Of a stretch of DNA of 64,000 nt, positions 17,896 to 52,033 are shown in pieces; position 1 is the stretch's first letter; each line of letters starts with the position of its first letter. The notes below the pieces were generated by a model. It had not been told where the DNA came from. It made no database searches and worked only from the letters and a program-made list of their open reading frames with translations. Made by a program: the position numbers and the translations under genes. Source of the stretch: Gracilariopsis chorda (Eukaryota > Rhodophyta > Florideophyceae > Gracilariales > Gracilariaceae); NCBI GenBank assembly GCA_003194525.1, contig NBIV01000152.1, forward strand, positions 118,651 through 182,650, written 5' to 3'.

Positions 17896-18720
17896 TTAGA
17901 TGACAATGAATAAACAGAGTTGACAGGCGCCCATTTGACACTCACGCTTGAACTGTGGTACACTTTCGCATACGACTTTCACATTTTTGGCTCCCCCGAA
18001 AATGAAGTCCCGGTTCCTGTCGGCGTCGTGGGAAGATTCTTCAGAGGTTGAATCATAACCATACGGAAGACGGATGACGATGGCAAGGACCTCGTTAGGA
18101 AGGCTGACTATGTCAAAGAGCTCGATGTTTGGGCAAGTTGAGCAACGCGGCAAGAAATGTCTGGTCTGGTGTGAGTGATCCATCCGAGAGACATGAGGCG
18201 GGATTTAGACGATAGCCAGTTCGAGGAAGCTGTTTCTGGGATCATGCTCCGAGAATGAAGATGAGTTGGGCAGCGTTCTGGCGGAGTGTACAACTTGAAA
18301 CTCTCGCCATCGGCGATACGGCAGTGGCATGTCGTCGTCCGGCTTGACCACATCGCCGCGCCCAGCGGTGGACGCTTCTGTCAGCGGTAACGCACTCCAT
18401 GTGGGAGGCACGCACGGCGTGAGGTCGCGGGAATGCCATGGCGGCGGATGCAGCGATGGCTGTGGGCTGCAACACTGAGTGAAGTCGTCGAGGGAGTGCC
18501 GCGACCGCGCCATGAGCGCGTAGGTAGCAGTAACGGCGGCCAGATGCGGCGGCTGCGGCGGTGCAAACGGCCACTGCAGAGGGGGGAGTGTTGTGGAACC
18601 CGATATGAACGGCTGCGGTGAGCACAGCAGCTGCACGACCGAAAGAAGGGGCTGATCAGCCGTGGAGGAAGCAGCTCGCGGCCGACGGGCGGTGTTAAAG
18701 GCGGCGTTGTACTGCGACAT
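17896..18720 (-). CDS. Unknown Pro/Ser-rich ORF with one in-frame stop
   Basis: One frame of 275 codons from an ATG at 18720, interrupted only by TAA at 18205-18207. The N-terminal two-thirds is rich in Pro, Ser and Ala; the last 95 codons are more ordinary (SLPNEVLAIVIRLPYG). No domain recognised. The uninterrupted phase across the stop is the main argument that it was once a single gene; composition alone could also explain the opening. Confidence 0.3.
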
Positions 18721-18729
18721 TGTGATGAT

Positions 18730-19432
18730 GTTGTTCGGCGGGGTTACGGATGTGGAAGCGGCGGTGGGTGTGGGGACTAGTTAGCCAAGTGGTGGGACGG
18801 GTGCACGGAGCGCGGTGCGAGGAGAGCTGCCGACGGGTGAGCTGCGTTTAAATGGAATGGAGAGAAGGATCGGACGGAATGTTTGTTACAATAAAATGTA
18901 CACTAGGGCGAGAAATGACGATGTGCAAGCCGAGCAAGTTACAGGAGGCGTTCAAAGCGGTTGAAACACGGCAGCTGTAGCGATTGTGCATGTGTATAAT
19001 TCGCGCTCATAAACGAGAAGAGAAGCAATGGCATGATGACGAGGTTGATCGCGCGCGTTGCACATCAAGCACAAGGCGTTCTGCTGCGGCGTGTGCCGCT
19101 GCCTGGAGAATCACAGCGTCAGAATCGCAGCGTCAGAATCGCAGCGTGCATGGCTGTAGAAGCGCTCAAACAGGTGGCGGCAGCAAAACGTAATGTGATC
19201 GGTACAGAAGCCCGTTTGAGGAATCCAACTTTTACCTCAGCATCAGCGTGAGAGCCGAGTGCACTGCACATCACTGATCCTTTTCCATCGCATACAACTC
19301 ATACCATGCGACCACCAGCCACGCCTCCATCGCCCATGGCGCCACCCCACCCATTTCGGCTTCGGCTGTGCAAGCAGCACTTGGTCGCGCAGCTGGCGCC
19401 CACCTACCGCATGTCCATCCTGCACTGCGCCG
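18730..19432. other. Stretch without a supported gene
   Basis: Contains short direct repeats (agaatcgcagcgtc near 19110-19140) and a few short ORFs. No gene recognised upstream of the COQ5 fragment. Confidence 0.4.
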
Positions 19433-19708
19433 CGCGCACGCTTCCTCATGCGCGAGTTTGCCGCCGTGCATCATCCCATGCTGCGCAGCTTGTACGACGC
19501 GTATTCTTTCAATGTGATTCCGCGCATTGGCCAGCTGGTGGCGCGAGACCGTCACTCGTACCAGTATTTGGTCGAGTCCATCAGCGCGTTCCCGCCACAG
19601 CATCAGTTTGCTGACATGATCAAGCATTGTGGCTTTCGCCATGTAACTGTTACTGACTACACCGGCGCTATTGGCGCATGTTACTCTGCTTTCAAACCAC
19701 CTCAATAG
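19433..19708 (+). pseudogene. COQ5/UbiE methyltransferase C-terminal fragment
   Basis: COQ5/UbiE C-methylates the ring of ubiquinone or menaquinone precursors. The 90 codons here match the C-terminus: FLMREFA, then PMLRSLYDAYSFNVIP, GQLVARDRHSYQYLVESI, FADMIKHCGFR and a terminal TGAIGACYSAFK. The SAM-binding N-terminal two-thirds is absent upstream. The last exon seems intact and ends at a natural stop, so this is a 5'-truncated fragment or a lone 3' exon. Confidence 0.85.
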
Positions 19709-19747
19709 CTAGAAACTTTCTTGGACGACCCTCGCGGTACTTTCAAA

Positions 19748-20642: not shown

Positions 20643-22733
20643 TTAACATTTTAGCTCGAGCCCCATCAGCTTCGAGTATGATACGGGTGTAAGTGCCTTT
20701 CCTAGCAACTCGCCCGCCCGCATACACTCCTCCTCCTTGGGCGTTTCGATGTACTGATTGTACGAAAGCCTGTTGCGCAGCGCTTTTCTGTCAATTGTTA
20801 CTTCGTACTTGCCCTCCACCAGTCGTATAATATCGACAAACGGTATATGAAGCTCGTGTTTCATTTCACAGGCTTCGTTATGGAGATCTGGGGGTAGGTG
20901 TTTTCTAACTTACGCCAAATCAGGACTGTGGTTATGTGTGGCAATCTTCAAATTACAGGAGTACCATTTCACCGTACTATCATCATCTTCTTTGGTAGAC
21001 ATCCCGTCGACGGTTCTAATGATACACATGAATTCACAACCTCTCCCCTTGCACTTGATTACACCTCGCTTCAGTACACATCCCTTCCTCTTTGTTCCAT
21101 CGGTGCCAGAGGCGCCGTAAATATGCTTATGGTACGTAGACGAGCGAGTGTAAACATCGTATCTAAAGACAGAAGCAATATGCTGCACCTGCTCCAAAAC
21201 CTATACCCCAGATGCATTCTCTGGTACCCTGGATATGAAGCACAACAGTGCTTCTACGAGCAAAGCACTGCTTTTGCCAGCACCCTCTCCTACAACAGTA
21301 GACTTCCCAGAAGTGTCATCTGATGACTCTTTTGAAGAAGTCACAAACTCAGGCTCCGATAACTGTTCTGAGATCTCGCAAAACATTCATTGCAACAAGA
21401 CTGAATCTTCTTCAAGAACGCTGTCCACAAAAAGAGATCTGTCTTGAACTACATTCTCGTCTGATACTTCCTCGTCGACCACTCTGTCCTCATATCCATC
21501 CATAGTAGTCTGCACTTCCTCGTCCTCATCAACAGTTCCTCGCACGCTTTCTTCCCTACTAATCGTAACCTTTGCCATGTTCTCATTAGAAGGCTGGCCA
21601 ACTATACCTTCCCTACTGGCTGACACCACCCGGGGTGCGATAGTTTGGAAACGAGGCGTAGCATTTCCCGCACTCCTGTTTAGAATAGCTCCTAGCACAA
21701 TTTCATTCCTCGAGTTATCCAAAGAGCCAGCTGCACCAGATCTGGATTCCCGACAATAAAACGGAGTCAGAATCATCTTGAACAGGTTCCAGTGAGAAGC
21801 GGACTTCATAAAAGACTTATCTTCTTCCCAATCACGAATCCTGTTCCGAATTGATGCAATTACCGCGTCGTATCTCTCCATAGAAAAACTTTCATGTGCC
21901 ATATGAGATTCATGGTTGTGTGGTGACGCTCGGGACAACGTCCAAAGCATTGTAGACCTCTGTAGCTTTCCAACTATTGCTCCCCTACAACAGTCTGGGC
22001 GCTTGTAGCGTATGCATTGTAGACGAGCATTGACAAGATGATGCTCTTGAACGCACTTTCTAGTTATCTTTTGGAAGCTTTGTATCCCAAACGATTCACC
22101 AGACCTGCACAGCTCCAGAAGAAAGTATGGCAAGTCCTGTGTTTCCCACTTCTCCTTCACATGTCTTTCTTGTTGCAAAACCTGTGTTTCGCTTAGCAGA
22201 GCTGTCTCGCCAGTTCTGTTCATATTCTTCTTTAAAGCCGAGTGTATTATCTCATCCAGTAAGCCGCGAATGATAGTTGATGAGTCATCGAAGCGAATGC
22301 GTCTTCTCCGATGGTATTCACGTACACCCTCATGGCATTGATACCCGTACCACACTCTTTGCTTGGACTGCACTGCTCTGAGGTTCTCCCTACGCCTGTC
22401 GCAGGCCTTCGTCTCAAATTGTTCTTCTCTTTCAGGCATAGCGCCTCTTTCGAGTGCTGAGAACGCTTTATTGATAATCTCCGTTATATCCAAGTCAGAC
22501 TGCTCAACGTCAAACCCACGTTTATTATCATTCCCAACTGAACAGTCCATCTCGACCATCTCATCCATTCTACGGATAGTATCTTTCAACCTATACGTTT
22601 CTCTCACTTCTCGTACCCGCCCTACCCTTTTGGAATGTTGAAACGCTGACACCCCCCTTCTCCAATCTCCACACAACCGCTTTCTTCTGCGGCTCCAATA
22701 ATGCCTTGAACTCTGTAATTTGCAGCGTCCCAT
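20643..22733 (-). pseudogene. Transposon-like protein with FLYWCH-type zinc fingers
   Basis: One frame of 697 codons with three isolated stops (TGA 21387-21389, TAG 21201-21203, TAA 20910-20912) and no frameshift. Two stretches resemble FLYWCH/WRKY-GCM1-type fingers of Mutator-like elements. The first has RLQCIRYKRPDCCRGAI followed about 25 residues later by HNH; the second has VIKCKGRGCEF followed by HNHSPD. Between them lies a long acidic linker. After the second finger the frame continues as an ordinary helical sequence. Together with the Ulp1 protease just upstream, this suggests a MULE-type element, but I found no DDE transposase core. Confidence 0.55.
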
Positions 22734-23592
22734 CTGTACAGAACTGTTAGTTTGTGGTCGTATCCAGAGGCAAATGTCTTCTCAGGAAGAAAAGTGTTAC
22801 CCTTAGCGAGGGTTGTGTACGCTGCAAGAACATAGGCGCCACAACTATAGCTATCCGGCTGCCTCTGAACCTTCAGCAAGTCCAAAAGATAGTTCTTTGT
22901 TGAGGTCTGCCATCACACAAGCTTTTTCGTAAAAGCATTGTCAAAGGCTGCTTTGAAGAAGTCAATGATATACTACGGACACCTCCATCGAACACTGTCC
23001 CCATAAAAAACCGTTCGAACCTCTACCTTCTTTAATGCGCTGATAGTTCTTCGACCCAACACAAGTCGCCAGTGCTCTCCATTGAAATTCAGAGGGCATA
23101 CTACGGTTGTTACCTCGGTATTCTCCGTAAAGAGACGCTCCCGGAACGGCTCCAAGAACTTATCAAGATGTTTTTTTTTTTGTATTTCTTGGACGAACCT
23201 CTCTTGTAGAAAGACTCTGCTAGTCTGACAAGATATGCGCCAGTCAGAAAGGTACAGAAGACTACTCCAGCTTTGGGTTCTAAACTGGCAATGCCAGCAG
23301 TTATGAGTGCGTTACATAGATACTTCTTCCGGTAGCAGTTTCGGATGAATACGTTAGAAACTTGCTGGTTTCTATCGTTGATCAACAGTCGAGATATATG
23401 GTTGAGCAATGCATTGGAACCACTGCCAATCTCAAGCCTTACGTTTTTATCTATATCCGTAACAAAACGGTCTACTTCTTTTCGCTCCGAGTCTGTAAGC
23501 TGCCCATAACTTGTCGTCTTCTCTGTAACAGAGCGCTTCATGTTCGCATCAGGGTCCGTTATGTACAGAAAAGACTTTCGATGTCGACTCAC
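22622..23592 (-). pseudogene. C48 (Ulp1-like) cysteine protease, frameshifted
   Basis: Ulp1/SENP-family proteases cleave SUMO-like modifiers, and related copies are carried by several DNA transposons. The catalytic order His-Asp-Gln-Cys is visible: NGEHWRLV (His), FYGDSV (Asp), then RQPDSYSCGAY (Gln and Cys). The reading frame changes near 23170, next to a run of T on the plus strand (A in the coding strand), again between about 22975 and 22890, and again near 22650 where it passes into the FLYWCH-like frame. All four catalytic residues survive, but no single frame covers them. Confidence 0.75.
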
Positions 23593-23599
23593 AAAGAAA

Positions 23600-25200
23600 G
23601 GTTTCTGGTTAGTGTAGAACGCACAATTGTAAGCGCGCTCAATGGAAAGTGTGATTTCAGGTTACCGTGTGCTGATATTCTTATCGCATGGGCTCCTCTT
23701 TTCCAGTATCTTCTCTTGGATAGAAAGCGGATTCGCGTGCTGACTGCTGATTTGTGAACAAGCGCGAGGTTGTTGGCAAGCGCTGCGTTGTTGGCGAGCT
23801 CTGGATCGCATGAAGACTGCTGCGGGTCTGTGGGCAGGCGCTGTGTGGGGAAGCCTGCGATGAGACAAAGGGAGTGGTAGGGCGTGGGCTGGTGCTAGGT
23901 AGTGGTCAAGTGGGCGAGAGGGCGGCTGTTGAGGAAAGACTCAAAATGGCGGACGGGTGACGAGGAGAAATGACCTCAAGCACGATCGGGCAGTTCTCGA
24001 GAGAATGGCTGATCCAGTGCTTGAATCAGCCACAGATCTCGCACATGTGTTGCGTCCGCGTCGCAGCGTTGAAAATGCTCAAAATACAGGTTGGCAGCAA
24101 TGTTTTAGTAGTGAACGCTGATTGGCCGAGGCTGCGCAGATGGGCATGTGTCATGCTGTGGTTGGATACTCGTGGCGCGCGTGCCTGGGAACCTGAACTC
24201 TACATTCTTATTGGTCTACAGAAAAAGCTCATACAGTAGCTCACGAGGCCGTACTCTCCTGTACTGCACTCGCTTGCGCTACCCTGTACTCTGAGCCCTC
24301 ATTGGCGGTGTTCTTACTCATTTTACCATGAGTAAATTCAGCCCCTGCCCCGGCGGCGTAGCCGACAGTGGGTGCTGTGTATTTATTGACATTCATGTAC
24401 GCATTGCAGCACTTTATGGTGTGGTGCTCAGTTCGTAAAGTACACTACGAGTCACTGCATGCAATTTCCATGCTCAATACAGGCTTTATTGATAAAAAAG
24501 ACCCTCACTTCAGCACTGATTTGGCCAAGCCTCAAAAGCCCTCTGCATGCTTCTTACGCCATTTACAATTTAATAATAGAAGAGTACCTCTGAAACCCCC
24601 TAAAACGTTTTCAGTTTGTAAAGTTGACAAATCAAATCAATGGCCATGACTAAAACACGGCTTCGTCGCGTTTACCCTGTACTAGTATACTCGCCAAAAG
24701 ATAATCCGTGCTGCACAAAGCTCGAAGTACTGGATAAGGTATCATTTGAGGCGGGGTGCCGCTTCAAACTGCAAATTTCCCTTGGAATATTGTGGCCGCG
24801 TATCTCTTGCCTTTTTTTTACAGGTTTGATCTAGTAGAGTAAAACTTCCCTATTCCAGAACGGTTTTTAATAATACAACAATAGCTTTCGTACGGCCTAA
24901 CATGGTTGTGTCGGGGTTTATTCATTTGAACGTTTGGCGCAGTGTTGTAAAAACCTCGAGAAAACCCCATCTACAAAACCCCAAGCAGTCCCCGCATTTA
25001 CTTCGTAAACGTAACAAATACCCGAATTGTTTTATGGTAATACGTATGCAGCGATTTCCGCCATCAACCCTTCATTTCTCACATAATCACACACGCTTTC
25101 TATACGTGACTACATAATGTAGGTTGCTATGAATTTTTGTTTACATGTGTTGTGAAAAACACCGGCTGATATTTTTGGGGAGAGAACCCGATATGTACAT
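23600..25200. other. 1.6-kb stretch without a supported gene
   Basis: Only short unlinked ORFs. AT-rich in the second half. Nothing recognised. Confidence 0.5.
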
Positions 25201-25614
25201 CCCTTGCATAGCTCTCTGATTAGAACCACGCCGATCGCGTTGAGCCGAAGAAGGTTCCTGTTGCGTTGCAGCACGACGGACGTCACGATCGGTCGCCTGA
25301 CGATTTGCACGATTATCTGGCGTCTCTGAAGTCCATGCCGAAGCAGTCGCTGTATTGCCAGCCTCACGAACCACATCAGCCTGCGCCGCCGAGTGTCCAC
25401 CTCCTCTTCTTCTTGCACGTTCCCAATCAGCCGAACTCTGTGCTTCGCGCTGCTCAGCAGTTTCATTTGCTCTCCGTGCTGCAGATCGTTCCCTATCACG
25501 CCGTCGCCTCTCCGCCCTTTGCTCGTTTGATTCCGTCTGATGCCTTGCGGCAGTACGTTGACCGTTCTGCTCACGTGCAGCACACCGTGAAACACTAGGC
25601 TGAGGTGGAGGCAT
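25141..25614 (-). pseudogene. N-terminal stub of the Helitron Rep-helicase
   Basis: Starts at ATG 25614 and gives about 157 residues. The first ~135 match the N-terminus of the full Helitron protein, an Arg/Glu-rich low-complexity region (ESNEQRAERRRRDRERSAAR). After QRDRRGSNQRAMQ the sequence diverges and ends at a TAG-type stop. No enzymatic domain remains. Confidence 0.85.
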
Positions 25615-26940
25615 TATAGAAGAAACTGAGCACTCGCCAAAGAAAGCAGAGACTCCGAGACAGGTAAAGCAAGGCGAAGAACAGAATGAAGAGAAAGGAA
25701 AATATGTGGTCGATAAAAGAATGTGCTGCGCGCTGCAAAACCCTTTTGTACACCTAGCACCGAAGTTTTTGATGTTTGCAACGAAGATAAAATATCTTGA
25801 CCACAAACAAACCACCTAGATTGATGAAAAACCTGTACAGAAGAAACAGGGGGCCGTGCCTGGAAAGTCTGCCAGGACTGCGAGATTTACAAACCCAAAA
25901 TATCTCGACAAACTCTGTGCTGGACGTACTTTAGTCCGAAGGCGGTTTCCTGTGGTACAACCAATAGGGTGTCAAGTACCAGTGGCGTAGTCTGCTTGGA
26001 AAACCTTTGGCAGGAGCGCGAGGAGGGGTCGACCTGAACGGTAGAAGTTGGATAACCAAATGGGTGTGGCAGCACCAAACCACTAGGGGCGCAAGATAAT
26101 CAGGCAGGCTTACCGTAACCAATTGGTAGTGTTGGTAGTACGGCGCACACAATTTAGTAAAGCCTGAATAGTCTTAGCTAAACCAAGAGGTTGAGTGTAG
26201 AAACCAGTTAGTATCACAAAGAGCCAAGAGGTGCTTACCTTTATCATGCTTGGTGAAGGAGCGCTGTGCCAACCTTTAGGGTGAGCAAGGCTCAACCTCA
26301 GGTGCACTCGGTTCCGTGGCATAGTTTGGGACCAGCCCTAGTGGCATGGTTAAAACCCACAGTAGCAGAACGTCAATACCTACCTAAAATAATTAAATAA
26401 ATTGGCTAACTAATTAGTTAGCCACTCAAACCCACGTGGCACACTCACCAATTGGTCCAGCGCGCGTTGCGCTGCCCATGGAATCAGATCTCACTGTATC
26501 ACATTTCCCTTTAACAGTTCCCTAGATCTACACAGAGCCGCTGTTGCTCGACTCGTACTCTGTTGTCCTCTCTCTACACTCTTTAAAACCTACTCTTTCA
26601 GCGCAAAGCATGTTTGGTAGGGTGCTATCGTACCTCACGTGAACGCCACCCAGAAATAGTTGTAAAACCAATTAAATCTGGATGACGAACGCGTTATCCG
26701 GAGAGAAAGTTACACTTAACAGATCCCACCAGTACCGCCAGCGTACCTTTTTCAGACGTACAGACTGGCCCAGAGTACTGGAACATACACCTTAGGTTAA
26801 CCACAGCAAAGGAGAACGCCAGCGCTCAGTGGGCAAGCGCCATGCTTCCACTTGGCATCCTCTTTGCCGATTTTGCAGGCAAGGAGTTCGAGTTTTCTGC
26901 AAAACAGACACACAAACATTGTATTTAGTATAATGGGGGA
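25208..26940 (-). mobile_element. 3'-truncated Helitron copy
   Basis: Matches the 5' part of the full element (about 32895-34308) in the same order and orientation: 5' terminal sequence, untranslated leader and start of the Rep-helicase ORF. Homology stops at about 25208, so almost all of the Rep and helicase region is missing. A 553-bp insertion (25951-26503) interrupts the leader. At the 5' end the matching sequence stops at tttagtataatggggga (26940). Confidence 0.85.
25951..26503. mobile_element. Solo LTR with 5-bp target-site duplication
   Basis: A 553-bp insertion that begins TGTGGTAC and ends GTATCACA (TG...CA termini). It is flanked by tttcc at 25946-25950 and again at 26504-26508. 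The uninterrupted Helitron leader at about 33638-33650 has a single tttccctttaac, which proves the insertion and its 5-bp duplication. No coding sequence is inside. Size, termini and duplication fit a solo LTR left by recombination. Confidence 0.85.
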
Positions 26941-27779
26941 GACAAGTGGCTCCTATGGGGCCTTCGCACGCAAACGTTAGGATTGCTTGGTTGAACGTCC
27001 CTTCAGTCGTACAGAAAAGCTGCATCGAAAACGTGACTTACCAAATAAGTGAAAATAGTACTTGTGCGCATAAAAAGTGCACTACTAACTCTTTCTTTCA
27101 ACGCATGATCGAAGACAGTGGCAAGGTGCTCCGCATGAAGTCTGTGGACGCTTTGATGTCAGAAATCGCGTAAACCGTGTAGTCGGGATCTGCATATGGT
27201 CACGTGAAGGAGAGTAGCACCGTTGCACAAAGCACCGTCGTCTGTAGCGATTTCGTACTTACCAAAACTGAACAGAGCTTTGGGGCCACCTGTAGTATAC
27301 CGTGCAATGCAATCACAGCAGTACGCAGCTTCTGTTCGCGCGCGTGTTAAGTTATGGTGGCTTCTATCGCATCAGGATCTGGGCGTGAATCTGTAGAGCG
27401 TTGCTTGGTGAACGAAAGCAGAATAGTCATGCATTCCACCATTGCGCATAAAGTCGTCATTCAGAACATTGTCACGTATAGCTTTCTTGCGGGAGCATCT
27501 CGGAAGGCAGCACCGCGTCTGGCAGTAATGCGGTAAACGATGCTACCATGGGGTTTTAAAACCTCCGCGTATACCACAGCAATGTAGAGCATTGTCGCGC
27601 CTAGCATCATAGCGCCTCGAACCGTAGCATTGTTGCGTTTAGCAACTTCGCGCCTAGCCTCTTTTTTTAGAGCATAGTTATGCGGAGCGTTGTTTAAGGC
27701 ATCATTGTGTGCCGTTTTGTGGTGTAGAGGAGTGTAGACGTGCCGGCAAGTAAATGCGTGTACACTTATGTAGTGCAAG

Positions 27780-28212
27780 TTCATGTTCGTATGGTAACTA
27801 CAGCAAAGGAAAAGAGGAGCGCTCAGCCCGCAAATGGCATGGAACGCATTAGTGTACCGTGCAGATTCATTGGTGTGGATAACCATGGTTTACTATAGCG
27901 TGCAATGCCATTCGTGCACATGACTGTTCAAAGATAATAATTTAAGCTGTCTTGTGCGCTGCGCTGCAATGGCTCGGTTACTGTAGTGCAACGTACGGGT
28001 TACTGTAGGTAGACGGCTGGGCTACTGTGCCGTGCCAATGGCGCCAGGTGGAAACGTGTCGCATTATGCAATGCAGGTTGCCTCTTGGAGCGCATAAAGT
28101 TACACGTTTCCACTTGGCGTCCTCCTTGCTGATTTTCCAGCCAATGAGTGGGCGCTTGCTGACGGACAGACAGACAGACAGACAGACTTCCGCTTTAGTA
28201 TAAGTGGGGGGA
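27780..28212 (-). mobile_element. Short Helitron 5'-terminal copy
   Basis: Homologous to 33925-34308: the untranslated leader plus the 5' end, but with no ORF. It contains the 16-bp inverted repeat described separately and a cagacaga microsatellite. The 5' end is at tttagtataagtgggggga (28212). The flank continues as acaagtggctcc plus a cgtgcttcgcacg hairpin, also seen next to the copy ending at 26940. Confidence 0.75.
28043..28118. other. Stem-loop in Helitron leader (short copy)
   Basis: gccaggtggaaacgtg (28043-28058) pairs with cacgtttccacttggc (28103-28118), with one G:T-type mismatch. It is conserved at the same place in the full element (34139-34214), so it is part of the element rather than chance. 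Confidence 0.85.
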
Positions 28213-28240
28213 CAAGTGGCTCCATTACGTGCTTCGCACG
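28213..28240. other. Hairpin adjoining a Helitron 5' end
   Basis: cgtgcttcgcacg is a perfect short hairpin about 15 bp outside the Helitron 5' terminus. A decayed version lies at the same distance from the copy ending at 26940. It could be the 3' hairpin of an adjacent Helitron in the same orientation, though the bases after it are not a textbook CTRR. Confidence 0.45.
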
Positions 28241-28415
28241 TGTTAAGGAGTGAAAGAACCATTGGGGTGAAAGAAGTATTTGTGTAGCGTTTGTTGGGTA
28301 ATGAGTTTGTAGAATGCAAGTATTTTTGGGGGGTAAGAAGGGAGAAGAAAAGAAAAAGATGAAAGAAAAAGATGAAAGAAAAAGGAAGACGTTTACTTAA
28401 AACTATCAAGTTCCT

Positions 28416-31400
28416 CTACGAAAGAACTTCGGGGTACACTACATTATTGGTAGAGGTGCTACCGGCAGGGAGACAGGCCACGATGTTGGACGGGTTGGTG
28501 GTCCGAGAAAAGGCGACGTACAGCTGGCCATGCGTGAAACAGCCATCACGCAAATCCAGTCCGATGCGACCACTATACGACTGACTCTGTGCCTTATTGG
28601 TAGTGATGGCAAAACAGACACGTACTGGGAACTGGGTGCGAGTGAAGTTGGGAACCGGAAAGTTGTCGTCTCCAGGTCCACAGGGCATGCGCGGCAGGCA
28701 TAGTGCGTTGCCACGATTTACTCCAAAAGCAAGTCGAAGGAACAGTACGTTGCTTTGCATGTCTTCTACGGTATAGATGGCACCATTGACGTGGCCGTTT
28801 GAGGGATCCAAGTTGCGAAGGAGCATAACCAAAAAACCCTTTTTGAGTTTGAGGCGATGGTCTGGCAGCGCTGACCCCGCAGTGAGAGTGTTGAGCATCT
28901 CGACAGGGTACTGCAGCGCGGCACCGTCCTCGTCGCCCACCTTGTCCGCACTGAGGTACGTGCGATACGCTCCAGGTATCATGTGGCCTACATAGTCGTT
29001 GAGCTCTGGTAGGCGATAGTTTCGTGCGGTTATAATCACCGTTGACGTTAGCCAATCCGCATCTACGTACCTTTGAGCGATACCATCAAAGACCTTACGG
29101 ACCATGTTGCGGAATGACTCCACACATTGTACGGACTGTGGCAGGGTGAAGGGGTGCTTTCGGGGGACAGTGCCTGGCAGTCTGCCCTCTCCAATCTGCA
29201 AGAGAGTGTGTGGAAAGTGCAGTGCTTCCTGTGTTGCTGTGGGGTCTCGAAGGAGCGTAGAGAGCCGCATGTTCTCAGTCAATCTCAAGGTGCGAAAGTG
29301 AGAAAAGAGACTTGAGCGTTTGATGCAAGCGTTGACGATCACTGATCGAGAGCCGCCACGAACAACGGGGAGAATCTGTCGAAAGTCGCCAGAAAGCAAT
29401 ACGAACTTGCCTCCAAAGGGGAGCTGCGAGCGCGTTATGTCACGAAGAGTGCGGTCTACGGCTTCGACGCAGAAGCGATGACACATTACGATCTCGTCCC
29501 AGATAATGAGGTCGACGTTCTTCATCCGATTGGCCAGGTGCGAGTTGACTGGGATGTTGCACGTGCTCTCAGCGGTGGCTGGGATAGGAATCCTGAACAC
29601 CGAGTGGGCGGTCCGACCGCCCTCAAGCAGTATGGCTGCTGCAGCAGACGTGGCTACCGTAAGGATGGACTTGCCACATAGTCATAACGTAGCCTGAATT
29701 GCCTTGGAGAGGAAGGTCTTGCCGGTTCCACCCGGAGCATCCAAGAAGAAGACGCGAGTGGTTGGCTGCGTTGCCGTAGAAGGACCACCAAGACCCTGCA
29801 AGCTCTCCGCGGACACGCCAGGAAGGATGGCACCCACGACGGTATTGAACGCCAGACGCTGACACTCATTGAAGAGAGGGAGGGCAGCTTGCACATTTTC
29901 GTTCAGCTCGGACTGGATTTGCTGCGGAGACCGAGTTGGAGCGCGCAGTTCCGGTAGGTCTTCCATAGGTATTGGAAGACCGTACGATGACAGAGACGCC
30001 AGTGTGCCACCCATTTCTTGCAGTGCCTTTTGCACTTCTAAGAGAACGTAAGAGCTGGCTCTCTCGTCGTCGGCCAATGCCTGCATCATGCCACGATGTC
30101 GAGCCCGTATATCCTGAAGGAACATCTATAGATGCTGCTCCCACAGAGTACGGGGGTCCGACGGCTCGCAGTAGAGCAAGATGGTGGCAAACAAATGAGA
30201 GAGCGGAACAAATGAGGAGCGAAAAGACTCGCGTAGTGCCCGTCTCCACTCGCTGTCATCGGCTAGAAGGCCCTTCTTGAGGCAGGCCTCCCTGAAGCTA
30301 CCACACTGCTGACCATCCACGGTGCGGAGATGTTGAAAGGAAGTAGCACCTGCTGTGTGGGTCAAGAGTAAGCGGAGGTAGTACCGCTCACTCTCTCGTG
30401 GACTGGCAGTGAAAATGCGCCCAACTACATGCGCGCCGCTGCCAGTGAAGTCATATAGATCGGCTGCAGCGGCCGCTGAGGAGGAGTTGGGCTGGCTTCG
30501 AGACCCCGAACGACGTCGGAGACACGCACGCGGCTTCCAGCATTTGCTTGATTTGTTCCAATTAAAGTACCTCGGGAACTGGGCATAAGGGATATGCTGT
30601 GCGCCGGGGTACTTTTGGTTGGCCACAAACCACTCAGTGAGCTTGATTCCTGCCCGCTCTCTGTTAGCAGCAGAGTGCTCGTTGCCTTCCCGGAAGAACA
30701 CCCTATGGTGATCTTCTAAGTGTACTTCAAGCCGCACGACGGGTGGATTGCGCTCAACAATGTCAAACGCAAGCATCCGCCACACCGCCTCGGAGGCTGA
30801 CACATACCGTGCGTCCTGGAAGTTCTGGATCTCGTCATGGCGTCCGTTCTCATCTACAATCTCCATGGTGACTCTGTCGGAACCCTTGCACACATACTTG
30901 AAGAGGTACTTGATACCGCCAAGTCGCGATACGCAGAGCTCAACGTTGATGTGGCATGCAAACCGGCGGAGAAGCTCTGGGCAATGTGGAACCACCCACA
31001 AATTGTCCAACGTCACTACGCGCTGTCAACGCCCGGCCCTGCAGCTTCGTTCCACAGACACCCCGCCCTCGGAAGGGGCGCGTCGTCGGTAGCTGATGTA
31101 GTACTCATTCTCAAGCCGTGCAGTTTCGGAGCGAAACGGCTTCGGAAAGTGCTTCGAGGAGGTCAGCTCGCGCATGCACAGCGCTGACCGGTTTCCAGCA
31201 CCGCACGGAGTGTGAATCATGTGCTTGAGCACCAACTCTTGTAAGGTGGCGTCGGAGGAAGGAGGAATCTCAGCTGAGATGAGCTCGTCAATGTGAGCAG
31301 GGTCTCGGAGCTGCTGCTTTGCATCTTCGTTGAGGAAGAAGATAATGTGCGCGTGTGGTAGGCCTCACTTTTGGAACTCGACCACCCGCACGTGAGCCAC

Positions 31401-36302: not shown

Positions 36303-36385
36303 AGAGAAGCACCCCACCTCCAACATAACGGCACTAGATTGATTCTCTTCGAAAACACCTCACTCCTTCCAGCTTTCTAAGCTTC

Positions 36386-37366
36386 ATGAGATCTTACGAG
36401 TCTTGTATACCGATTCAATTCGGCCCGCCAGTTCCCTGTGACACAACAGTTACTTGTTCAGAAGAGTATACCACTATATCATTTGCAGATGTGCTGCAAC
36501 TCACTGTACCCAAGCAAGGTGAAAACTATCATATAAGAAGCGTCCAGAACCCAAGTACGGACGTAATGAAAGAGCTGCGACAAATCTATATTGATGTTAC
36601 TAATCTTCCCAGTCATGACGTCTTGCTCCAAAAGGCTCAACTAACCCGCCTACTCTCCGATCGATATCATATTGCCATGTGCATCCAAAACCTTAAAACA
36701 ACACATCATACCCCTAATATTTGGAGCTTGTTCAGTCTTTCCAGATGTTTGTATTCATCTCTCGTCTTATGACTTGCTCACACATTGATGAAAGGTATCA
36801 TAGGCGGGACAGTTACTTTTGTTTTGAGAGGTCCTAAAAATTCCCTGTTTCGCTTTGCCCGCAAGGCTTTGTTCCATTGCTTCACCCAGAGTGACCTGAA
36901 TATTGTGATTGGAGGGAGTGCAAAGCACTTTTTGACTGCAGTGTGCGGACAGTTATGTAGAACCCCCTTCAATCGCAGCATTGCATACTCATGGAGGACT
37001 AGATCAATACTTCAATTTGCGGGGTCTTTATTAACCAGTCTGCTTCCTGTCAACATAGCCTTATATGTCACACATCTTCTCATCCCTTCTGGCAAAACAC
37101 TGCAATCCGAAGTGACCAAGAAATGTATCGCTTACTCTCTAAGCGGCTCACTGACGGGTGGCTTTACATACCTCTTGGATGTCTGGATTCTATCTAGAGT
37201 AACAAGAACCTATGCAAATACAACCTACACATTGCACCGTAATATACCACCTAGATCCCTACATCATGCCGCAGTGAACGCCGTAAAACGCTCTATACGC
37301 TGTGCATTCTTCATAATCGCGCCGGTAACTACATGTCGGCTGATTGGCTTAAAGATGTTCTCCTGA
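36386..37366 (+). pseudogene. Unknown membrane protein, paralogue B
   Basis: 326 codons from ATG 36386 to 37366 in one frame, broken only by TGA at 36770-36772. Order as in paralogue A: soluble N-terminal region beginning MRSYESCIPIQFGPP, then hydrophobic segments (around LQFAGSLLTSLLPVNIALYV and GSLTGGFTYLLDVWIL), ending CRLIGLKMF. Alignment with A runs straight through both stops, which fall at different positions in the two copies. Sequence similarity is moderate, so the duplication is old, yet each copy has exactly one stop and no frameshift. A TATA box precedes it. Confidence 0.65.
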
Positions 37367-39531: not shown

Positions 39532-39869
39532 TTACGCTCGCGCCCAAAAGCCGTCACTATGGTGTGCCCTTCGCCGAGCTCTCTTGCCACGCGCATGGCG
39601 CCCGCCACGGTGGTGCCGGACTACATGTCGAGACACAGGACCTCCTCCTGCATCAGTTTGTAAACCACGTCCAACACCTGCGTGCACTGGTGCGCAACAA
39701 AAAACGAACAAACAGTAAATGACCACGCGCGCAGGCCACGTACCGGAGTCATTAACTCGGACTTGCCGTAGATCTTGCAGCCGGTTCGCGGGAGGAGCGC
39801 CGCAACTTGATGAGGGGGGATCGTGCCGATGGCGTCCACGATGCTGTAAAACAAATTGCCGGCAAGCAC
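39532..39869 (-). pseudogene. Cysteine synthase remnant with internal deletion
   Basis: Cysteine synthase (O-acetylserine thiol-lyase) makes cysteine from O-acetylserine and sulfide using PLP. The N-terminal piece reads SIVDAIGTIPP and TGCKIYGKSELM. After a GT-AG intron-like segment (39678-39743, gtacgt...cacgcag) it jumps to a C-terminal piece, VLDVVYKLMQEE, then SGTTVAGAMRVARELG. The PLP-lysine region between them is gone. An in-frame TAG (39621-39623) sits just before the SGTTVAGA block. The join at an intron suggests exon loss by recombination within introns. Confidence 0.8.
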
Positions 39870-40452: not shown

Positions 40453-40821
40453 TTACACGCATACCTGGTAGGGGTTGAGCTTTACTTGAAGCTTCCAATA
40501 TAAATCTACCGTTGCACAAGACTGACCACCAACATGGTGTGACGTTTGCGAAACGGCCGGGCGTCTAATTCTGGTCCGGTTGGCGAAAGTTCCCGCCAAG
40601 AGTGAGTGATGTTTCTGTAAGCGCTCGGAGAGGTGTTCAACTCTCGTTACTTGTATGAGTTCGGAGAGAGAAGGGTAGGGCTGCGGAGCATGATTCAGGG
40701 AACTTTCGACTTCAAGCACAAACGCTATGCCGCGCAGAGTCGTTAGGCCCAGTCTACTGCTTAAAAGCTCGGCACGCCACACTTGCCCCGCAATCGTAGC
40801 TGCATTGACCTTCGACGCCAT
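40453..40821 (-). CDS. Unknown ORF divergent from the acidic-repeat gene
   Basis: 122 codons with an ATG at 40821, only 14 bp from the frame start of the divergently oriented gene at 40836. No domain recognised. If both are real they share a very short 5' region, which makes one of the two starts doubtful. Confidence 0.3.
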   Translation of the reverse strand: MASKVNAATIAGQVWRAELLSSRLGLTTLRGIAFVLEVESSLNHAPQPYPSLSELIQVTRVEHLSERLQKHHSLLAGTFANRTRIRRPAVSQTSHHVGGQSCATVDLYWKLQVKLNPYQVCV

Positions 40822-40835
40822 CTGAAGTTGAAACG

Positions 40836-42653
40836 TTGGATATGGTGAGGTGCGTTACACGATCACAGACTCGCGCCCTGCAAGAATTGTCCGCCAATAC
40901 CATGGGTGAGGCACCTAGAGATCTGCCAGAACCTGTCCAGAGGAAGAAGGGAAAGGGGAATGCCCGTCATGCTGCCAAAGAAATCTACAAGGAGACGGGG
41001 CGCGATGTGCGTGAGGGTCCGAATCTAAGCGAAAAACCTGAAGTGAGCGATGCCTCAAATATGAGAGATGAGCCCAATGAGCCCTATGTGGGAGATCAGC
41101 CCGATGAACCTGTGAGGGGCAATGAGCCCAAAGTGAGAGATCAGCCCGATGAGCCGAACGGCGATGAGGAGCCTGAAGTGGAAGATCAGCCTGACCAGCC
41201 CGTAAACGACAATGAGTCCGAAATGGGCGATGAGCCCAATGAGCCCGAAGAGGGCATTGAGCCCAATGAGCCCGAAAAGGGCATTGAGCCCGAGAAGCCC
41301 GAAGAGGGCAATGAGCCCGAGAAGCCCGAAGAGGGCAATGAGCCCGAGAAGCCCGAAGAGGGCAATGAGCCCGAGAAGCCCGAAGAGGGCAATGAGCCCG
41401 ATAAGCCCGAAGAGGGCAATGAGCACCATGAGCCCTAAGATGGCGATAGGCCTCATGAGCCCAAAAAGGGAGATGAGCCGCTTGTGGATGGGCTTGAGGA
41501 ACAACAGGTCAATTGGGACGGGAGCCGGGCCACTGACTCCTCGGAATGTAAAGAATTGGAAAGCTGTATTGAAGAGTACTTGGATTGTGAGGAATTTATG
41601 GGAGTGGGAAGCACCGAGAAGCCAGAAGCTGCGAACGAGCCCTTAGCCAATGCTATAGAGCGGGTTGATATATGTCAAGAGGATGATATGAGCAAGGCAG
41701 AAAGCGAAACTTTCATTAATGGTACAATACCCGACATTCTGCGCTGGGCCATTCACTACCACCGAAGGATGTCGGTTGCAGGCACCAATATCACATTACC
41801 AAGGCCGCCTGCAATTGCTGTCGGAGAAAGCGTCACATTTTGGAACGGAGGAAAGCGGTTCTGGGAGAACGTTACCCGCTTCGCGAGTGGTATGCCTCCT
41901 TTTGGACAATTCGAGAATGTACTGTACGCTATGGAGCGATATCCGTCCTCGGTCCTAGTACATACTGGCTTCAAACTCCTCTTTGAGAAGTAAAAGAAGA
42001 TCGGGAACAAGTCAGTTCCAACTCTCATACCAAGCTCTAATGTCTTCTTGGAGTTCAGTGTGCTGAAGGCCAACAGCATCGCTAAAGACTGGTACGAGGA
42101 AGATTCTCACACGAGACTGCAAGAGGCTGCAGTCCACTTGACGGCCGTGGCTGAGTATGTATTGCGATGTGCTTTCATCTCTTTTCAACCCGGTAGCAAT
42201 GCATTATTCCCTAGCATGCTCACAACGAGCATAACAATGGCCGGAAGTGAAGAAGATCCCCTGCTAGTGCTTCCGAGCTCGAAAGGACTGTTGAGGGATC
42301 TATCGGAAGAAGACGCTTACGACTGTCTCAATCTTGCTATGAAGGACGCTCACAATGCAGTTATCCGTGGTAGCGCAGTCTCGGGTAGAAAGAATGGCAA
42401 GAAACGATGTAACTCCACCAGTCGTGAGCGGCTCAAACTCCAGAACCTCCTGGATATCCCCTCAGAAGTTTTAAACCTACTGATTGCGAACTTGAGAGAG
42501 TCCGTAACTACGACAGCATCAGCTAGGGAAAGATCTGAGGAGCTCGATTCCGACGAATTCGAATACCAGATGAAGAAGATATTTCGTGGAGTTATGGCTC
42601 TCTACAGACATGTTGGGATGAAGTTCTTTGTGGATGTATTTGGATCCGAGTGA
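40836..42653 (+). pseudogene. Unknown large protein with acidic repeats, two in-frame stops
   Basis: A single frame of about 605 codons, cut by TAA at 41436-41438 and TAA at 41991-41993, with no frameshift. The N-terminal region is basic, then an acidic Pro/Glu region containing about five tandem copies of a nine-residue EPEKPEEGN unit (27 bp, 41283-41425). The C-terminal ~300 residues form a folded-looking domain (ILRWAIHYHRR; GGKRFWENVTRFAS; AMERYPSSVLVHTGF; LTAVAEYVLRCAF). That domain is clearly paralogous to the ORF at 63192-63899. The first stop falls at the end of the repeat array, the second in the middle of the domain. Function unknown. Confidence 0.7.
41283..41425. repeat. 27-bp coding minisatellite
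   Basis: Unit gagcccgagaagcccgaaga plus gggcaat, about five copies, in frame with the surrounding ORF. Flanking shorter variants extend the Glu/Pro region on both sides. Confidence 0.95.
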
Positions 42654-43557: not shown

Positions 43558-43859
43558 AGAGTTTAGACAGTGCTCAGAATTGAAGAAGAAAAGCCGGCAG
43601 TCGCTCCAGAAGCGAAGACCAGCCTTGGCACAATGTCCCCTGACCATTTCGATGCCAGGGCAAAAGCTTTTTGGCGCAAATGAGAGCAACCCTTCACCCT
43701 TGGGCAGCAATTGCAGCAGGCTCTGGTTAGCTGCTGACCATTATCAAAGGCACCGTTGTACCTCGGCATTGCAGACCCCGCGCGTGGTTTTTCGTCACAC
43801 AGCAGTACGATGCATCGGTAATTCAGCACTGGCGATCGTCTGCAACCTTCGGTTCATCG

Positions 43860-45038
43860 GTGCAGCTCTCATCCGCTCACTCGCCGCTCACGTCCGATGT
43901 ATTTCTCTCCACCAACCGCTTGGCACCACTGGCTCCTTCCTCAACGGTTCTCCGCTTCGCAGATGCGACTATTCTCGCCACCGCTGCTCCACACTCCCAC
44001 CCCACTATTGACTTCCGCTCAAAAGCTGCCGCTGTTGGAGTGATTCCCCTCACGTGGACTCGCAAAGAGCAGCAACCAGCACTTCGAGAAACGATCACAG
44101 CTCGACTGATTGATCGCTCATTACGCGCTGCAACACCTGGCGCACATGTCTGTGTGAACGTTTTTGGAACCCGACGCACCTCAGACCCGCCTTTGGATGC
44201 ACTCGCTGTCAATGCTGCTTCGGCCGCTGCTGCTGCGCCACCAGCTTGGAAAGAGCCTATTGCAGCTGAGCCTGTGGCATCAAAAGCACTGCTCTCTACG
44301 TTTGTTGCCATAAGTGAACAGCGACGCGTGCTCTGCCTTTCGATTCAGGCAGCTAATGCAGCGGATTCTCTCATTACCGATGCCGTAGCGGAGGCTTTAG
44401 AAGCGGCTGTTCTTCTTATTCAGCTGCAGAAGGGTTATCATCGAATGGTCTTAGATCTGCGAGAGCGAGAGGGCTTGTCCTCTTTCCCAAGACAACAACC
44501 GCATCCGCAACAGCAACCGGAGTCCTTTCTAGTTCCGGACGAAACAGTCACAAATCAAATCTTCCAACACGCCGTTAAGATATTCGACCAAGCCTTTGCA
44601 AAGTGCAGAGATCGCCATGGAAAAGCACATCGAGCGCACGTTTTAACAACTACACAGTAACAAGTACTCGATCATTTCGAAGCGTATAACCCCTCCCATG
44701 TTTGTCGCATCATAGATGCAGCCGCTCGTGAGGCTTTTCCCTCTAGGATCTTCAAGGACCGATGTCGCCTTGATGGGCGTGCGCCTTCTCAAGTCCGTCG
44801 GCTACGAGCAGAAGCTGCTGTATTGCCTGGTGATGTACATCGCTCTTACTTATTTGAGCGAGGCGATACCCAAGTGCCCGGTCATGCCACCATAGGGCTT
44901 TTGGCTCGGGCGGCAAAGGTTGAAAAACACACTGATGGAGCCGATCAGAGACCCTTTTTTGTTCACTGCACTTGTCCTTCTTATGCTACCGGGGAGCCTG
45001 GTGGTCCGTCTTCTTTATCGAGAACGAGGACAGTTTGA
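43860..45038 (+). pseudogene. Polynucleotide phosphorylase (PNPase), truncated
   Basis: PNPase is a phosphorolytic 3'-5' exoribonuclease, organellar in eukaryotes. First RNase PH domain: VLRFADATILATA, DFRSKAAAVGVIPL, ARLIDRSLRA, ALAVNAASAAAA. Second domain start: RLDGRAPSQVRRLRAEAAVL and LFERGDTQV, ending at ATGEPGG. Beyond about 45010 no PNPase sequence continues, so the second catalytic half and the KH/S1 domains are missing. A TAA at 44658-44660 lies in frame between the helical linker and the second domain. The first codon is not ATG, so a 5' exon may be lost. Confidence 0.85.
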
Positions 45039-45039
45039 A

Positions 45040-46500
45040 GCGGCTCGGCTGGGTCGTCGGACGTAATTGAGGCTGCGACCGGGGCGCACGCGCGCGTACA
45101 GAGCCATGTGTTCACCGAAGGAGCTAGCGGTATCGAGAGAGCTTGCGGCAGTGAGTGTGGCGGCGTTTCCGCGCGGATGCATTTGAGAAAGTACAGCTGA
45201 GGGAGGGTGCGGAGAAATGTCAGCAATGTTTCTCTGCAGCGTGAGCGTCAAGCGCAGCACATGCATGGAGTGCAGCAGCGGGCGCGCGTGCGTGCGCACT
45301 TGTGCACTTGGTAGTGGTCGCACGCGCATGTTGGGATAGAAAAATGGCGCATGCTGAACGATGGCGCTTTCCATGGTGGTGATCGGAAGCCAGAAGAGGA
45401 CATTGTTGCACGCGCGCTTGAGCAAAGAACGGGAAGGGGAGCGAAAGCAAAGCACAGAGCGCATGCAGCAGACGGGCGCGAATGGTGAGTTCGAACATGG
45501 CAGAGGCAGACACGCCACGACGATGAGCTCGGAATAGATATGTTAGTACGCAGCGCTGCGCAGCGCGAACGGCACCTCTGCCGAATAGAAGCGCACCAGC
45601 GTGTGGGTGTGTTGTTGCTCACACAGTTGTACTACGGCAGAGATGAGCAAACAGACGTCAGTCTCGTGAGCTGCACGCTGCGAACTTTGCCAACTCTCGA
45701 AAGGAACGCGGTGGATGATTGGCTTAGAAACGCTCCGCGCGCAGGAGAGCTGTCTCAAGTTTGGTGTGATGAGCGCGAAGCGTTTGCGTATATAAAGAAG
45801 TGCTCAGTGCGCGCCACACTGGCGTCGGGCCGTGCCGTCGCGATAGCGTGCAGAGTGCTGGCGCACGCGCGTGCGCCAGCACTCTGCACGTTCACGCCGT
45901 GGTGGCGTTACACGCGCTGTCACTCTTTGTTATCGTAGTGCGGCGCGTGCTGCTGCTCGCCGCCTTCGTGTTCGACGTCGCCGTCGTGCGCACTCGGGAG
46001 CGCGCTCGAGCTCGAACAGCGCGCATGCAGGTAGCAGCTGTCGGCGCGACGCGTGGTGACTAAGAAGCGGCTGTGCCTAGCACAGGCGCTGACCATCATG
46101 CATAGCACGCCGGCAGCGACGCGCCCGTCGTTGCACAGCGCGCACCCGTTGCCGCCGCATCTTGCGCCGCGCCGTGGGCATCTGCAAATTTTGGCATCGC
46201 AACGTTCCGCGCTTGTCGCGCGCGAGCGCGCATTGATCTGCATAGCCGCGCCGCCAAACTGCCGGCGCCGCCACATACACGCGCCGCCTCTGTTTTCAGG
46301 CTCCCGCCGCAGTTTGCTTGCCCTTCGTGCGTGTCATGCTGCATGACTCATGCACCGCCGCGCGTGTGAAGCAAGAGGGCCCACAAGCGCAAATCGCAGA
46401 CAAAAAAAAGGCATGTATGGTTTCCACCCCCGCTGCCACCGGCGCGCGCCCGCCCTTAAGCCTCCTTGTACCCCCACTCCCCCCACAAACGATACATCTC
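45040..46500. other. GC-rich stretch without a supported gene
   Basis: High in CG and GCGC words, giving many long spurious open frames on both strands. It contains the 44-bp palindrome. No gene recognised. Confidence 0.45.
45847..45890. other. 44-bp perfect palindrome
   Basis: Reads cgtgcagagtgctggcgcac from 45847 and its exact reverse complement up to 45890, centred on a cg dinucleotide with no spacer. Flanking bases do not pair. It can form a strong hairpin or cruciform. Confidence 0.95.
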
Positions 46501-49603: not shown

Positions 49604-49609
49604 AAATGC

Positions 49610-50530
49610 AGTGGAAGCACGTGAAACGATTTTTGTCAACATGGCCTATGTTTTTCTACTCTACATACTCCGCATCGTAACGCGCTACTTGTTTGAAGGG
49701 TATTCATCGACCACCTCTCCGAAGTACTGTGAGCTTCACCAGAGGTCTTCAGGGTCTCTCAGTTTACTCTGTAGCCGGCAATCCTCATAATGGATCGACT
49801 GGGTGGTAATCTAAGCCATGCTACACTACGATTGCTCGCTGCATGATCAATGCGGGTGACAACTTGCAATTCATCACCGTATTCATACTACAAAACCGTC
49901 CAGCGGCGTTCGTTTTCGTCTTGGACGGCTGCTGCCGACGCAAGCTCTGCTGTCCATCCTTTCTTTTGCAACTGTTTCACTCTCGCTCTCTTTGTTTCGC
50001 AGATTTATTTTCATTCCGGCCACCCCCGCAGGAGTAGATAGAGCCTCCTGGGCTCTCCTGAAAGCTATGAGACCTTCCCATATTTGTAGCAAAGCATATG
50101 GCTCTGCCGATTCGTATCTCATACATTGTTCCGAAACAATAAAGATGATCCGATAATTCCATATCAAGAAAGCAATAGTACCCCCTAGAACCGCATATGT
50201 GCGGCATTCTAAATGAGAAACACTCTGAATTCATCAGAGGGGAGCTAGCTGCCCGCATGGCAATTGATTTATTCACTTTCACAAAAAAGGAATTTTCCGG
50301 CATGACATGGTATCTCAATCTGCTTTTCTTCACGCCACGATCTTGAGAGTTGTTGATCTTGGCAAGTACAGAGCCGCGCGTTGAAGCTGCGGTTTCTTGT
50401 CGCGCATTCCTTACGCCTGGGCCACGCTTCCCATATCCTACGTCGTCGACAGAAAACACGCAGCCCACGCCGGAAGTTTTTATGGCTTTAGAAGACTATC
50501 CGTTCTCAGGTAAGGGTTACTGAGACGAAA
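49610..50530. other. Stretch without a supported gene
   Basis: A 163-codon minus-strand ORF (49977-50468) is open but has no recognised motif. Otherwise nothing is seen. Confidence 0.4.
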
Positions 50531-50536
50531 GTAAAC

Positions 50537-52033
50537 GTGCAAAGAATGTCAATGACAAGCGATGGCTTCATCAAGTACCCAGAATTGCCTACTGGAACTG
50601 ATGTGTGCAAACTAAGTGATCATGCTTACGACTCTCTAGTGTATCAAATTTCTGATGACGCTAGCAGTTCAAGCGTGGAAACTTTTGTTCAAGATGAGCA
50701 CGTCAGCTCACGAGCTCGTATCGTTTTCCGCGTCGGCAGCGATGATGTTTTGCGCGTTAAAGTAGGTCGGAGTGAACACCAGATTGAAATTGTGTCGGAT
50801 CTACCGGGAACAGATCGAGTTTTGCGTCCCAGCAACTCACTAAAGCTGTCGAGCAGACAAGTGAGAGTGTACAAAAAATGGAGTCAGTTGCTCATGACAG
50901 GTCAGGTGTACTTTACTGGTCCTTTTGCGTGTGTGAATCGCATCACAGGCGCTTCCCCCGAATTCCAAGCACAAGTTGAAGCCGATTGACCTGTGCCGAT
51001 CCATATAGATGAAATCCCAAACGGGTTGCTAGGTTTCAAGGTCCGTTCATTGGGACTGAGCAGAAGTATCGGAAGGAGGATCTACCATGTCTCGAACAGT
51101 GGAGATGTGAACCTGGGGGAAGTAAACAACGAAGTTATATATCTCGGAAGTGGTAGACTGCGCAGCGTATATTTCGAGTCAGATAGTTCGTCAGATGATG
51201 ACTACATGGGAGAAGGAGAAGACGAAGAAGTAGCTGACGACATTTGCGATTGTGAAAACTTGGTATTGCGCTACAGAGAGGTAGCTGCAAAGTACAATCT
51301 TGAAGCATTCGCCGATCAAGTACTTCGTGATGGCCTTCAACACCAAGCTAAAAACAGCAGCATAGAAGATGTTGAACGTAGAACAGTGCTCCACGCCTTC
51401 CGCAAATACCCTTTTACAGGGTTTATGGAAGTTGCAGAAACATTTCGCTTTGAGGCATTGCTCCGTCCTAAGCCAAATACGTCGCATCGAGGGAGATGGG
51501 TGTATCGAATAGCAGCAACGCGGCTACGGGATCTAGTAGATTTTGATGCAAAGGTATGCAAGGGAGAGTATGAAGTTATTAGAATCGACGTGCGCCGCCG
51601 ATACATGACAACCAGAAGGGACGTAAGAAAAGTGCGAGAAATATGTCGCCTAGCGAGCTGTGTGTGTGAGATCGCTCGTAAGTCACAGTTGTCCATACAA
51701 GAAGTACACCGGCTCTTTCTTAAAGTTCCAGGTTCGCACACAAACCACGTTTTCGGAGCTTGCTATGCACACCGAAGAGGAGTGTATAGCGGGGAAAGGA
51801 CGGAGAGCGAACCAGGATGCATTTGTTTGGAGAACGCTTTGAGGCTTCGAGATGTCGTAGGTGTTATATGCAACCAGTTTGGCACACCGATACGCGAGAC
51901 GCGCTCTGGGTTGTTCCCTGTTATCGAGGCTCGTAACGGGTACGCTCACATTTGTTCTTGGACGAAAGAGGACACGATGTTGCCAAGTGGAGTAGATCTT
52001 GACACAAAGATTGCAGGGATCATCAGACCATAA
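50537..52033 (+). pseudogene. Unknown protein of ~498 codons with one in-frame TGA
   Basis: A single frame from 50537 (first clear Met is MQRMSM) to the TAA at 52033, interrupted only by TGA at 50987-50989. The N-terminal half is beta-rich in appearance (ARIVFRVGSDDVLRVKVGRS). A very acidic Ser/Asp segment (SDSSSDDDYMGEGEDEE) precedes a helical, Arg-rich C-terminal half (DVRRRYMTTRRDVRKVREI), with a Cys/His-containing end. No domain recognised. Codon-like periodicity persists across the stop, so it was recently one gene or is read through. Confidence 0.6.

Follow-up and report, generated by a model that had tools for sequence, protein, structure and literature searches.

The gene ENAM (enamelin) carries stops and no frameshifts in two baleen whale genera, as described in PMC2728479. 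Two other kinds of described system bear on this pattern: the read-through genes and pseudo-pseudogenes mentioned in PMC10235951, and the Helitron transposon Helraiser, for which residues H593, H595, Y727, Y731, K1068 and R1457 are reported to be essential (PMC4778049). Here, we analyzed isolated in-frame stop codons in a stretch of 64,000 nucleotides from the red alga Gracilariopsis chorda (contig NBIV01000152.1, positions 118,651 to 182,650; hereafter the window, whose own coordinates are used below).

An earlier note on this DNA had listed such stops and had argued that neutral decay should also bring frameshifts. All 16 of the stops that it named are present at the positions given (six TGA, five TAG and five TAA). 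We observed 21 cases of same-frame neighboring open stretches of at least 100 codons in the window, whereas the 40 first-order Markov sequences used as the chance baseline had 1.3 on average and never more than 4; at a length of at least 150 codons, there were five cases in the window and none in the Markov sequences. Not every one of these 21 pairs marks a lesion: one, for example, reflects where the Helitron frame ends, at 28416. The isolated stops are real and lie mostly within former coding sequence. The presence of a Helitron and other transposon-like genes is in itself indicative of eukaryotic DNA.

We conclude that these stops probably arose as ordinary nonsense mutations in copies of transposons and genes that were inactivated recently, i.e., through recent neutral pseudogenization. 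The stops, their frames, the frameshifts found in other parts of the window and the numbers of indels and substitutions are observed directly; we infer that the copies are dead and not translated, and that their death is recent. Selection would have ceased to act on the Helitron, on a further transposon-like unit, on the two diverged membrane paralogues and on remnants of enzyme genes, leaving random lesions to accumulate. With small indels about 25 times rarer than substitutions, and with about 3.4% of the substitutions in the Helitron frame making a stop, stops and frameshifts would be expected in roughly equal numbers, so that a young dead copy could have acquired a few stops while still lacking any frameshift. 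A reader tracking open frames would notice the stop-only copies and overlook the frameshifted ones. The impression of stops without frameshifts would then be largely an effect of ascertainment, because open-frame reading misses frames that jump.

In-frame stops in the Helitron and the membrane paralogues

The following features, given with the evidence for each, carry most of the argument on the stops themselves:

28227..34308, minus strand: Helitron element, approximate extent (Pfam, Helraiser alignment, 5' flank common to the second copy, 3' palindrome)
28416..33443, minus strand: Helitron RepHel frame of about 1675 codons with four in-frame stops and no visible frameshift (Pfam and Helraiser alignment)
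31365..31367, minus strand: TGA stop, Helraiser counterpart Arg, ungapped (Helraiser alignment)
31026..31028, minus strand: TGA stop adjoining a 12-residue insertion relative to Helraiser (Helraiser alignment)
30126..30128, minus strand: TAG stop, Helraiser counterpart Ser, ungapped (Helraiser alignment)
29682..29684, minus strand: TGA stop, Helraiser counterpart Arg, ungapped (Helraiser alignment)
25203..28212, minus strand: second Helitron copy, limited to the 5' part and matching the first copy in three stretches (sequence comparison)
34395..35684, minus strand: membrane paralogue 1, with a TAG at 34893 facing Leu of paralogue 2 (paralogue alignment)
36338..37366, plus strand: membrane paralogue 2, with a TGA at 36770 facing Met of paralogue 1 (paralogue alignment)

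The Helitron frame contains Helitron_like_N (Rep; 1.3e-47) and PIF1 helicase (4.9e-55) matches to Pfam in one frame, and it was aligned to Helraiser (7lcc_A, 1496 residues) over residues 21-588, 481-851 and 857-1464. In these alignments, which were read by eye, all six residues essential in Helraiser are matched and the frame holds the HUH histidines, the two tyrosines, the Walker A lysine and the arginine finger. The retention of these six counterparts is as expected of a young copy. The absence of frameshifts from this frame, as previously claimed, stands in the sense that none is visible: the alignment was not frameshift-aware, and a short self-compensating pair in poorly aligned stretches could stay hidden. 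The element seems nearly complete: its 5' end lies near 34308, and the 3' palindrome ACGTGC-GAA-GCACGT spans 28241-28227; the sole CTRR match in 28151-28420 is found at 28198, within start-like sequence common to other copies. This start-like sequence, which ends in TTATACTAAA, is repeated at about 26.9, 28.2 and 34.3 kb (window 26846-34308), and its arrangement suggests putative head-to-tail Helitron insertions. The coding piece of the second copy (25614-25204, the first 137 codons) is open and ungapped relative to the first copy; a first blastn reading of this copy as frame-broken was dropped, as its gaps are found only in the 5' flank. We searched for relatives of the Helitron with two pieces in viral contigs and with an N-terminal piece in prokaryotic genome contigs, and none was confirmed.

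The same alignments bear on the possibility that some of the stops lie inside short in-frame introns and that the genes are intact. The insertion beside the stop at 31026 is compatible with an intron, and the stop at 20910, in another unit described below, overlaps a GTAAGT with candidate acceptors. However, three of the four Helitron stops and both paralogue stops are located in ungapped alignment. Moreover, a candidate GT-AG intron (30-150 bases, length a multiple of three, fairly strong donors only) was found at 4 of the 14 stops scanned, i.e., all but the cysteine synthase and propeller stops, relative to 29% of random in-frame codons, which represents no enrichment. We therefore regard introns as a most improbable source of these stops and retain nonsense mutation.

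The two membrane paralogues, which are homologous to each other only, were aligned over 342 codons with 31.6% identity and a single gap, of one codon; each paralogue has one internal stop. Synonymous differences are saturated (proportion pS 0.81) and nonsynonymous differences are not (pN 0.47), which indicates that these genes were long conserved as proteins. Conservation before and after each stop is alike (0.27/0.25 and 0.35/0.37). Under a lenient penalty, a frameshift-aware alignment proposed two mutually compensating shifts in paralogue 1 (35276/35256) and one shift at the border of paralogue 2 (36364). Paralogue 2 also has a second in-frame stop where it ends, at 37364; neither these shifts nor this stop were counted. 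An AlphaFold model of the two sequences reached a mean pLDDT of 31 and was not used.

Similar conservation on either side of each stop is also what programmed or leaky read-through would predict, if full-length proteins were made from some single-stop genes such as these paralogues or the gene at 50.5 kb. A recent stop, however, would equally leave equal conservation before and after it. Sequence context offers a weak lead only: a C follows four of the six TGA stops and one TGA is followed by CTA, which is a leaky context, but no context is shared across the 14 stops scanned, and full-length translation of the Helitron would require read-through at four successive stops. No relatives with a conserved stop were found in the collections searched, which were viral and prokaryotic only. 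Read-through, which the earlier note had offered as one explanation, is left without positive evidence and we consider it highly improbable. Its narrower form, in which some long-conserved genes, the membrane paralogues for example, would tolerate one leaky stop and apparent pseudogenes would be expressed at full length, seems to us more doubtful still.

The residues faced by the stops point instead to ordinary substitutions. The six well-aligned stops face R, S, R, L, M and S (two Arg, two Ser, one Leu, one Met and no Gln), a mixture as expected for random substitutions. RNA editing, another of the mechanisms put forward before, is without positive evidence: these residues fit neither A-to-I editing (Trp) nor U-to-C editing (Arg or Gln). 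Simple codon reassignment had been judged unlikely, and we agree, as all three stop codons occur, one to four per unit in the earlier list, facing this same mixture.

Balance of stops and frameshifts

Frameshifts are not missing from the window. The features needed here are the following:

12834..14273, minus strand: PPDK remnant without stops and with single-base frameshifts at 14147, 14109, 13768, 13170, 13019 and 12921 (homology)
20650..23643, minus strand: transposon-like block, comprising a "FLYWCH-like" unit and an Ulp1/C48 protease domain (codon-usage hidden Markov model, HMM; Peptidase_C48 4.6e-06)
43731..45188, plus strand: PNPase remnant with a TAA at 44658 and a second stop at 45036 (homology)
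1..9734, no strand assigned: inverted repeat with arms 1-4287 and 5456-9734, 99.1% identical (sequence self-comparison)

The PPDK remnant, compared to the PPDK of Azospirillum, presents six frameshifts and no stop at all four frameshift penalties tried. Its pieces are 53-70% identical to the bacterial enzyme. These lesions may stem from decay or from errors left in the assembly, and the codon-usage HMM caught only part of them. In the FLYWCH-like/C48 block, the same HMM placed frame changes near 22632 and 23202 in addition to stops at 20910, 21201, 21387, 22913 and 22973. Stops without frameshifts are therefore a fair description of the Helitron, where no frameshift is visible, and fail as a rule for the window, given the six frameshifts of PPDK and the two frame changes of this block.

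We used the duplicated DNA of the window to estimate how many frameshifts should accompany a given number of stops. The arms of the inverted repeat (about 4.28 kb, separated by a 1.17-kb spacer) differ by 30 substitutions and one indel of 8 bp over 4279 aligned bases. Comparing the noncoding flanks between the two Helitron copies, we counted 147 substitutions and seven gaps; two small repeats gave 6 and 16 substitutions with no gaps (blastn). None of the eight gap lengths in the inverted repeat and the Helitron flanks is a multiple of 3. Pooling these sequences yields 199 substitutions for 8 gaps, a ratio of 0.040 (95% interval 0.017-0.081), and pooling all named blastn pieces, coding part included, yields 277 substitutions for 14 gaps. 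The fraction of single substitutions creating a stop in the Helitron frame is 0.032-0.035. Combining this stop yield with the indel ratio, stops are expected to represent 42-55% of disabling lesions (0.42-0.55).

The homology-anchored tally is 9 stops to 8 frameshifts (stops/frameshifts: Helitron 4/0, membrane paralogues 1/0 and 1/0, PNPase 1/0, C48 2/2, PPDK 0/6), and the probability of at least nine stops is 0.25-0.67. The frame changes of C48 rest on codon usage, not homology, and without both of them the tally is 9:6 (P = 0.13-0.47). Outside every tally stand the 18-kb ORF (open reading frame), the propeller and amylase fragments, the coding-like block at 58.4-60.0 kb, the stop at 37364 and the lenient shifts of the membrane pair. 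For the Helitron, indel ratios of 1/30 and 14/277 lead to 3.0-5.7 expected frameshifts and to a probability of 0.03-0.11 of having none; taken alone, its probability of having no frameshift beside four stops is 0.03-0.09. The balance of stops to frameshifts looks close to ordinary. The argument that neutral decay should have brought frameshifts has little force: the window does contain frameshifts, and only about 3-6 of them are expected in the Helitron.

Several results weigh against this conclusion. Gap counts depend on the aligner and the interval of the indel ratio is wide (0.017-0.081): a second aligner found 12 substitutions and two gaps of 2 bases in a 92-bp repeat, as well as different gaps in the flanks, and if the indel ratio were 0.1 the Helitron result would have P = 0.005-0.009. 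Removing PPDK leaves an anchored tally of 9:2, in which stops are in excess (P = 0.009-0.07). When weaker units are included, namely the stop of CysK, the PNPase stop at 45036 and the three stops of the FLYWCH-like unit, the tally becomes 14:8 (P = 0.03-0.29), and further adding the acidic-repeat gene (two stops) and the 50.5-kb gene (one stop), which were selected for staying in frame, gives 17:8 (P = 0.008-0.14). Over the whole window, the codon-usage HMM counts 28 stops and 11 frame changes in coding-like blocks, a count that takes in natural gene ends and misses short compensating shifts. The Helitron (four stops, no frameshift) differs from PPDK (no stop, six frameshifts; Fisher P = 0.005, in a comparison chosen post hoc), and so do all anchored units other than PPDK taken together, the Helitron included (nine stops, two frameshifts; P = 0.002). 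It is also a coincidence of sorts that both old membrane paralogues would be freshly dead with one stop each. For the difference between PPDK and the Helitron, we can offer only chance, unequal ages or assembly errors left in PPDK.

Errors of assembly or sequencing could more generally have made the lesions in otherwise intact genes. PPDK fits this idea, since it combines 69.6% identity in its central piece with single-base indels only and so resembles uncorrected long-read error. Yet the inverted-repeat arms show the 8-bp gap and no single-base gap, and the Helitron frame shows no visible indel in 5 kb, which together argue that there is no uniform error rate. To our knowledge, stop-making substitutions are not a typical residual sequencing error. 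We consider this explanation of the lesions very improbable.

The recent mutation proposed earlier is supported in its general form. In its specific form, directed C-to-T mutation, through methyl-CpG deamination or a process resembling repeat-induced point mutation (RIP), would have turned CGA, CAG and CAA codons into stops before indels accumulated. Such an origin is formally possible for every stop codon, and the two Helitron stops facing Arg in Helraiser are compatible with a change from CGA to TGA. However, the CpG observed/expected ratio of the window is 1.00, with no depletion (the ratios of TpG, 1.16, and CpA, 1.13, are slightly elevated). The 30 arm differences show no excess of C-to-T changes (12 transitions, six of them CpG-type, and 18 transversions), and four of the six well-aligned stops face Ser, Leu, Met and Ser. 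With a CpG ratio of 1.00 and only two of six stops facing Arg, both CpG- or RIP-driven decay and U-to-C editing are unsupported. Directed C-to-T mutation is very unlikely to be the source, in contrast to undirected nonsense mutation in recently dead copies.

Other units of the window

The stops of the remaining units that had been listed earlier are real, but the cysteine synthase, the propeller and the units without a family match are weak as units. The remaining units include:

39579..39680, minus strand: cysteine-synthase-like fragment of 34 residues with a TAG at 39621, aligned to a Ser in CysK of E. coli (homology)
40809..42653, plus strand: acidic-repeat gene with a TAA at 41436 and at 41991 (frame continuity only)
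50492..52033, plus strand: 50.5-kb ORF with a TGA at 50987 (frame continuity)

The 18-kb ORF is likewise taken as coding from frame continuity only. No Pfam match above the cut-off was found for the "FLYWCH" unit, the acidic gene, the 50.5-kb gene or the 18-kb ORF, and relatives of the FLYWCH-like and 50.5-kb ORFs sought in viral contigs were not confirmed. The Ulp1/C48 domain (22640-23230, minus strand), broken by two stops, is located directly upstream of the "FLYWCH" unit. We treat the two as one putative unit, and their proximity suggests a protease-carrying transposon. Both the stop at 21387 in this block (TGA-ATG) and the Helitron stop at 30126 (TAG-ATG), on the minus strand, are directly followed by ATG, possibly by chance.

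The PNPase is recognizable up to and beyond 44658, but the most lenient penalty makes its frame ambiguous around this stop and again beyond 45.0 kb. The two PNPase stops face Ala and Gly of the E. coli protein in a weak alignment and were excluded from the six well-aligned residues. Propeller matches are below Pfam cut-offs, and the two arms of the inverted repeat share the propeller stop, a TAG; each arm carries an HSP70-like fragment and a propeller-like fragment.

An alpha-amylase catalytic-domain fragment at 48144-48650 (plus strand; PDB match 1.9e-44, Pfam 3.7e-12) ends in a stop, and the coding-like block at 58.4-60.0 kb presents one stop and one frame change in the codon-usage HMM. The ORF at 54028-54666 (plus strand) has a sub-threshold match to Uma2 (1.1e-05, bit score under the Pfam cut-off), a family that is mainly cyanobacterial. 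Units without internal stops include an L7Ae/L30e-family ORF at 55951-56463 (minus strand; 2.5e-27) and an APH-like kinase ORF at 9867-11447 (plus strand). No Rfam match at gathering thresholds was found within the window, and a tRNA scan of the window found none.

Comparison with known systems

The way in which the pattern was found in this window illustrates how inspection that follows frames can manufacture stops without frameshifts, since indel-broken frames drop from view, and using duplicated DNA of the same window as a yardstick makes the balance of stops to frameshifts testable. Read-through, if true, would matter for pseudogene annotation in this lineage; nothing in the window requires it. 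The window units do resemble the pseudo-pseudogenes and read-through genes mentioned in PMC10235951 in having an in-frame stop within an otherwise intact frame, but they differ from read-through genes in lacking evidence for translation or for a conserved stop.

The Helitron resembles Helraiser of bats, an autonomous RepHel Helitron (PMC4778049) that combines a HUH nuclease with HAH and two-tyrosine motifs and a PIF1-type helicase in one frame, and that likewise carries a 3' palindrome. Unlike Helraiser, the frame of the window element has four in-frame stops, and its exact termini are putative. A parallel for the lesions is ENAM of baleen whales, in which, according to PMC2728479, some copies already have stops but not yet any frameshifts. 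In contrast to ENAM, the window presents several unrelated units within 64 kb, one of them with frameshifts only. The pattern is close to that of recently dead transposons and genes, sharpened by the mode of discovery.

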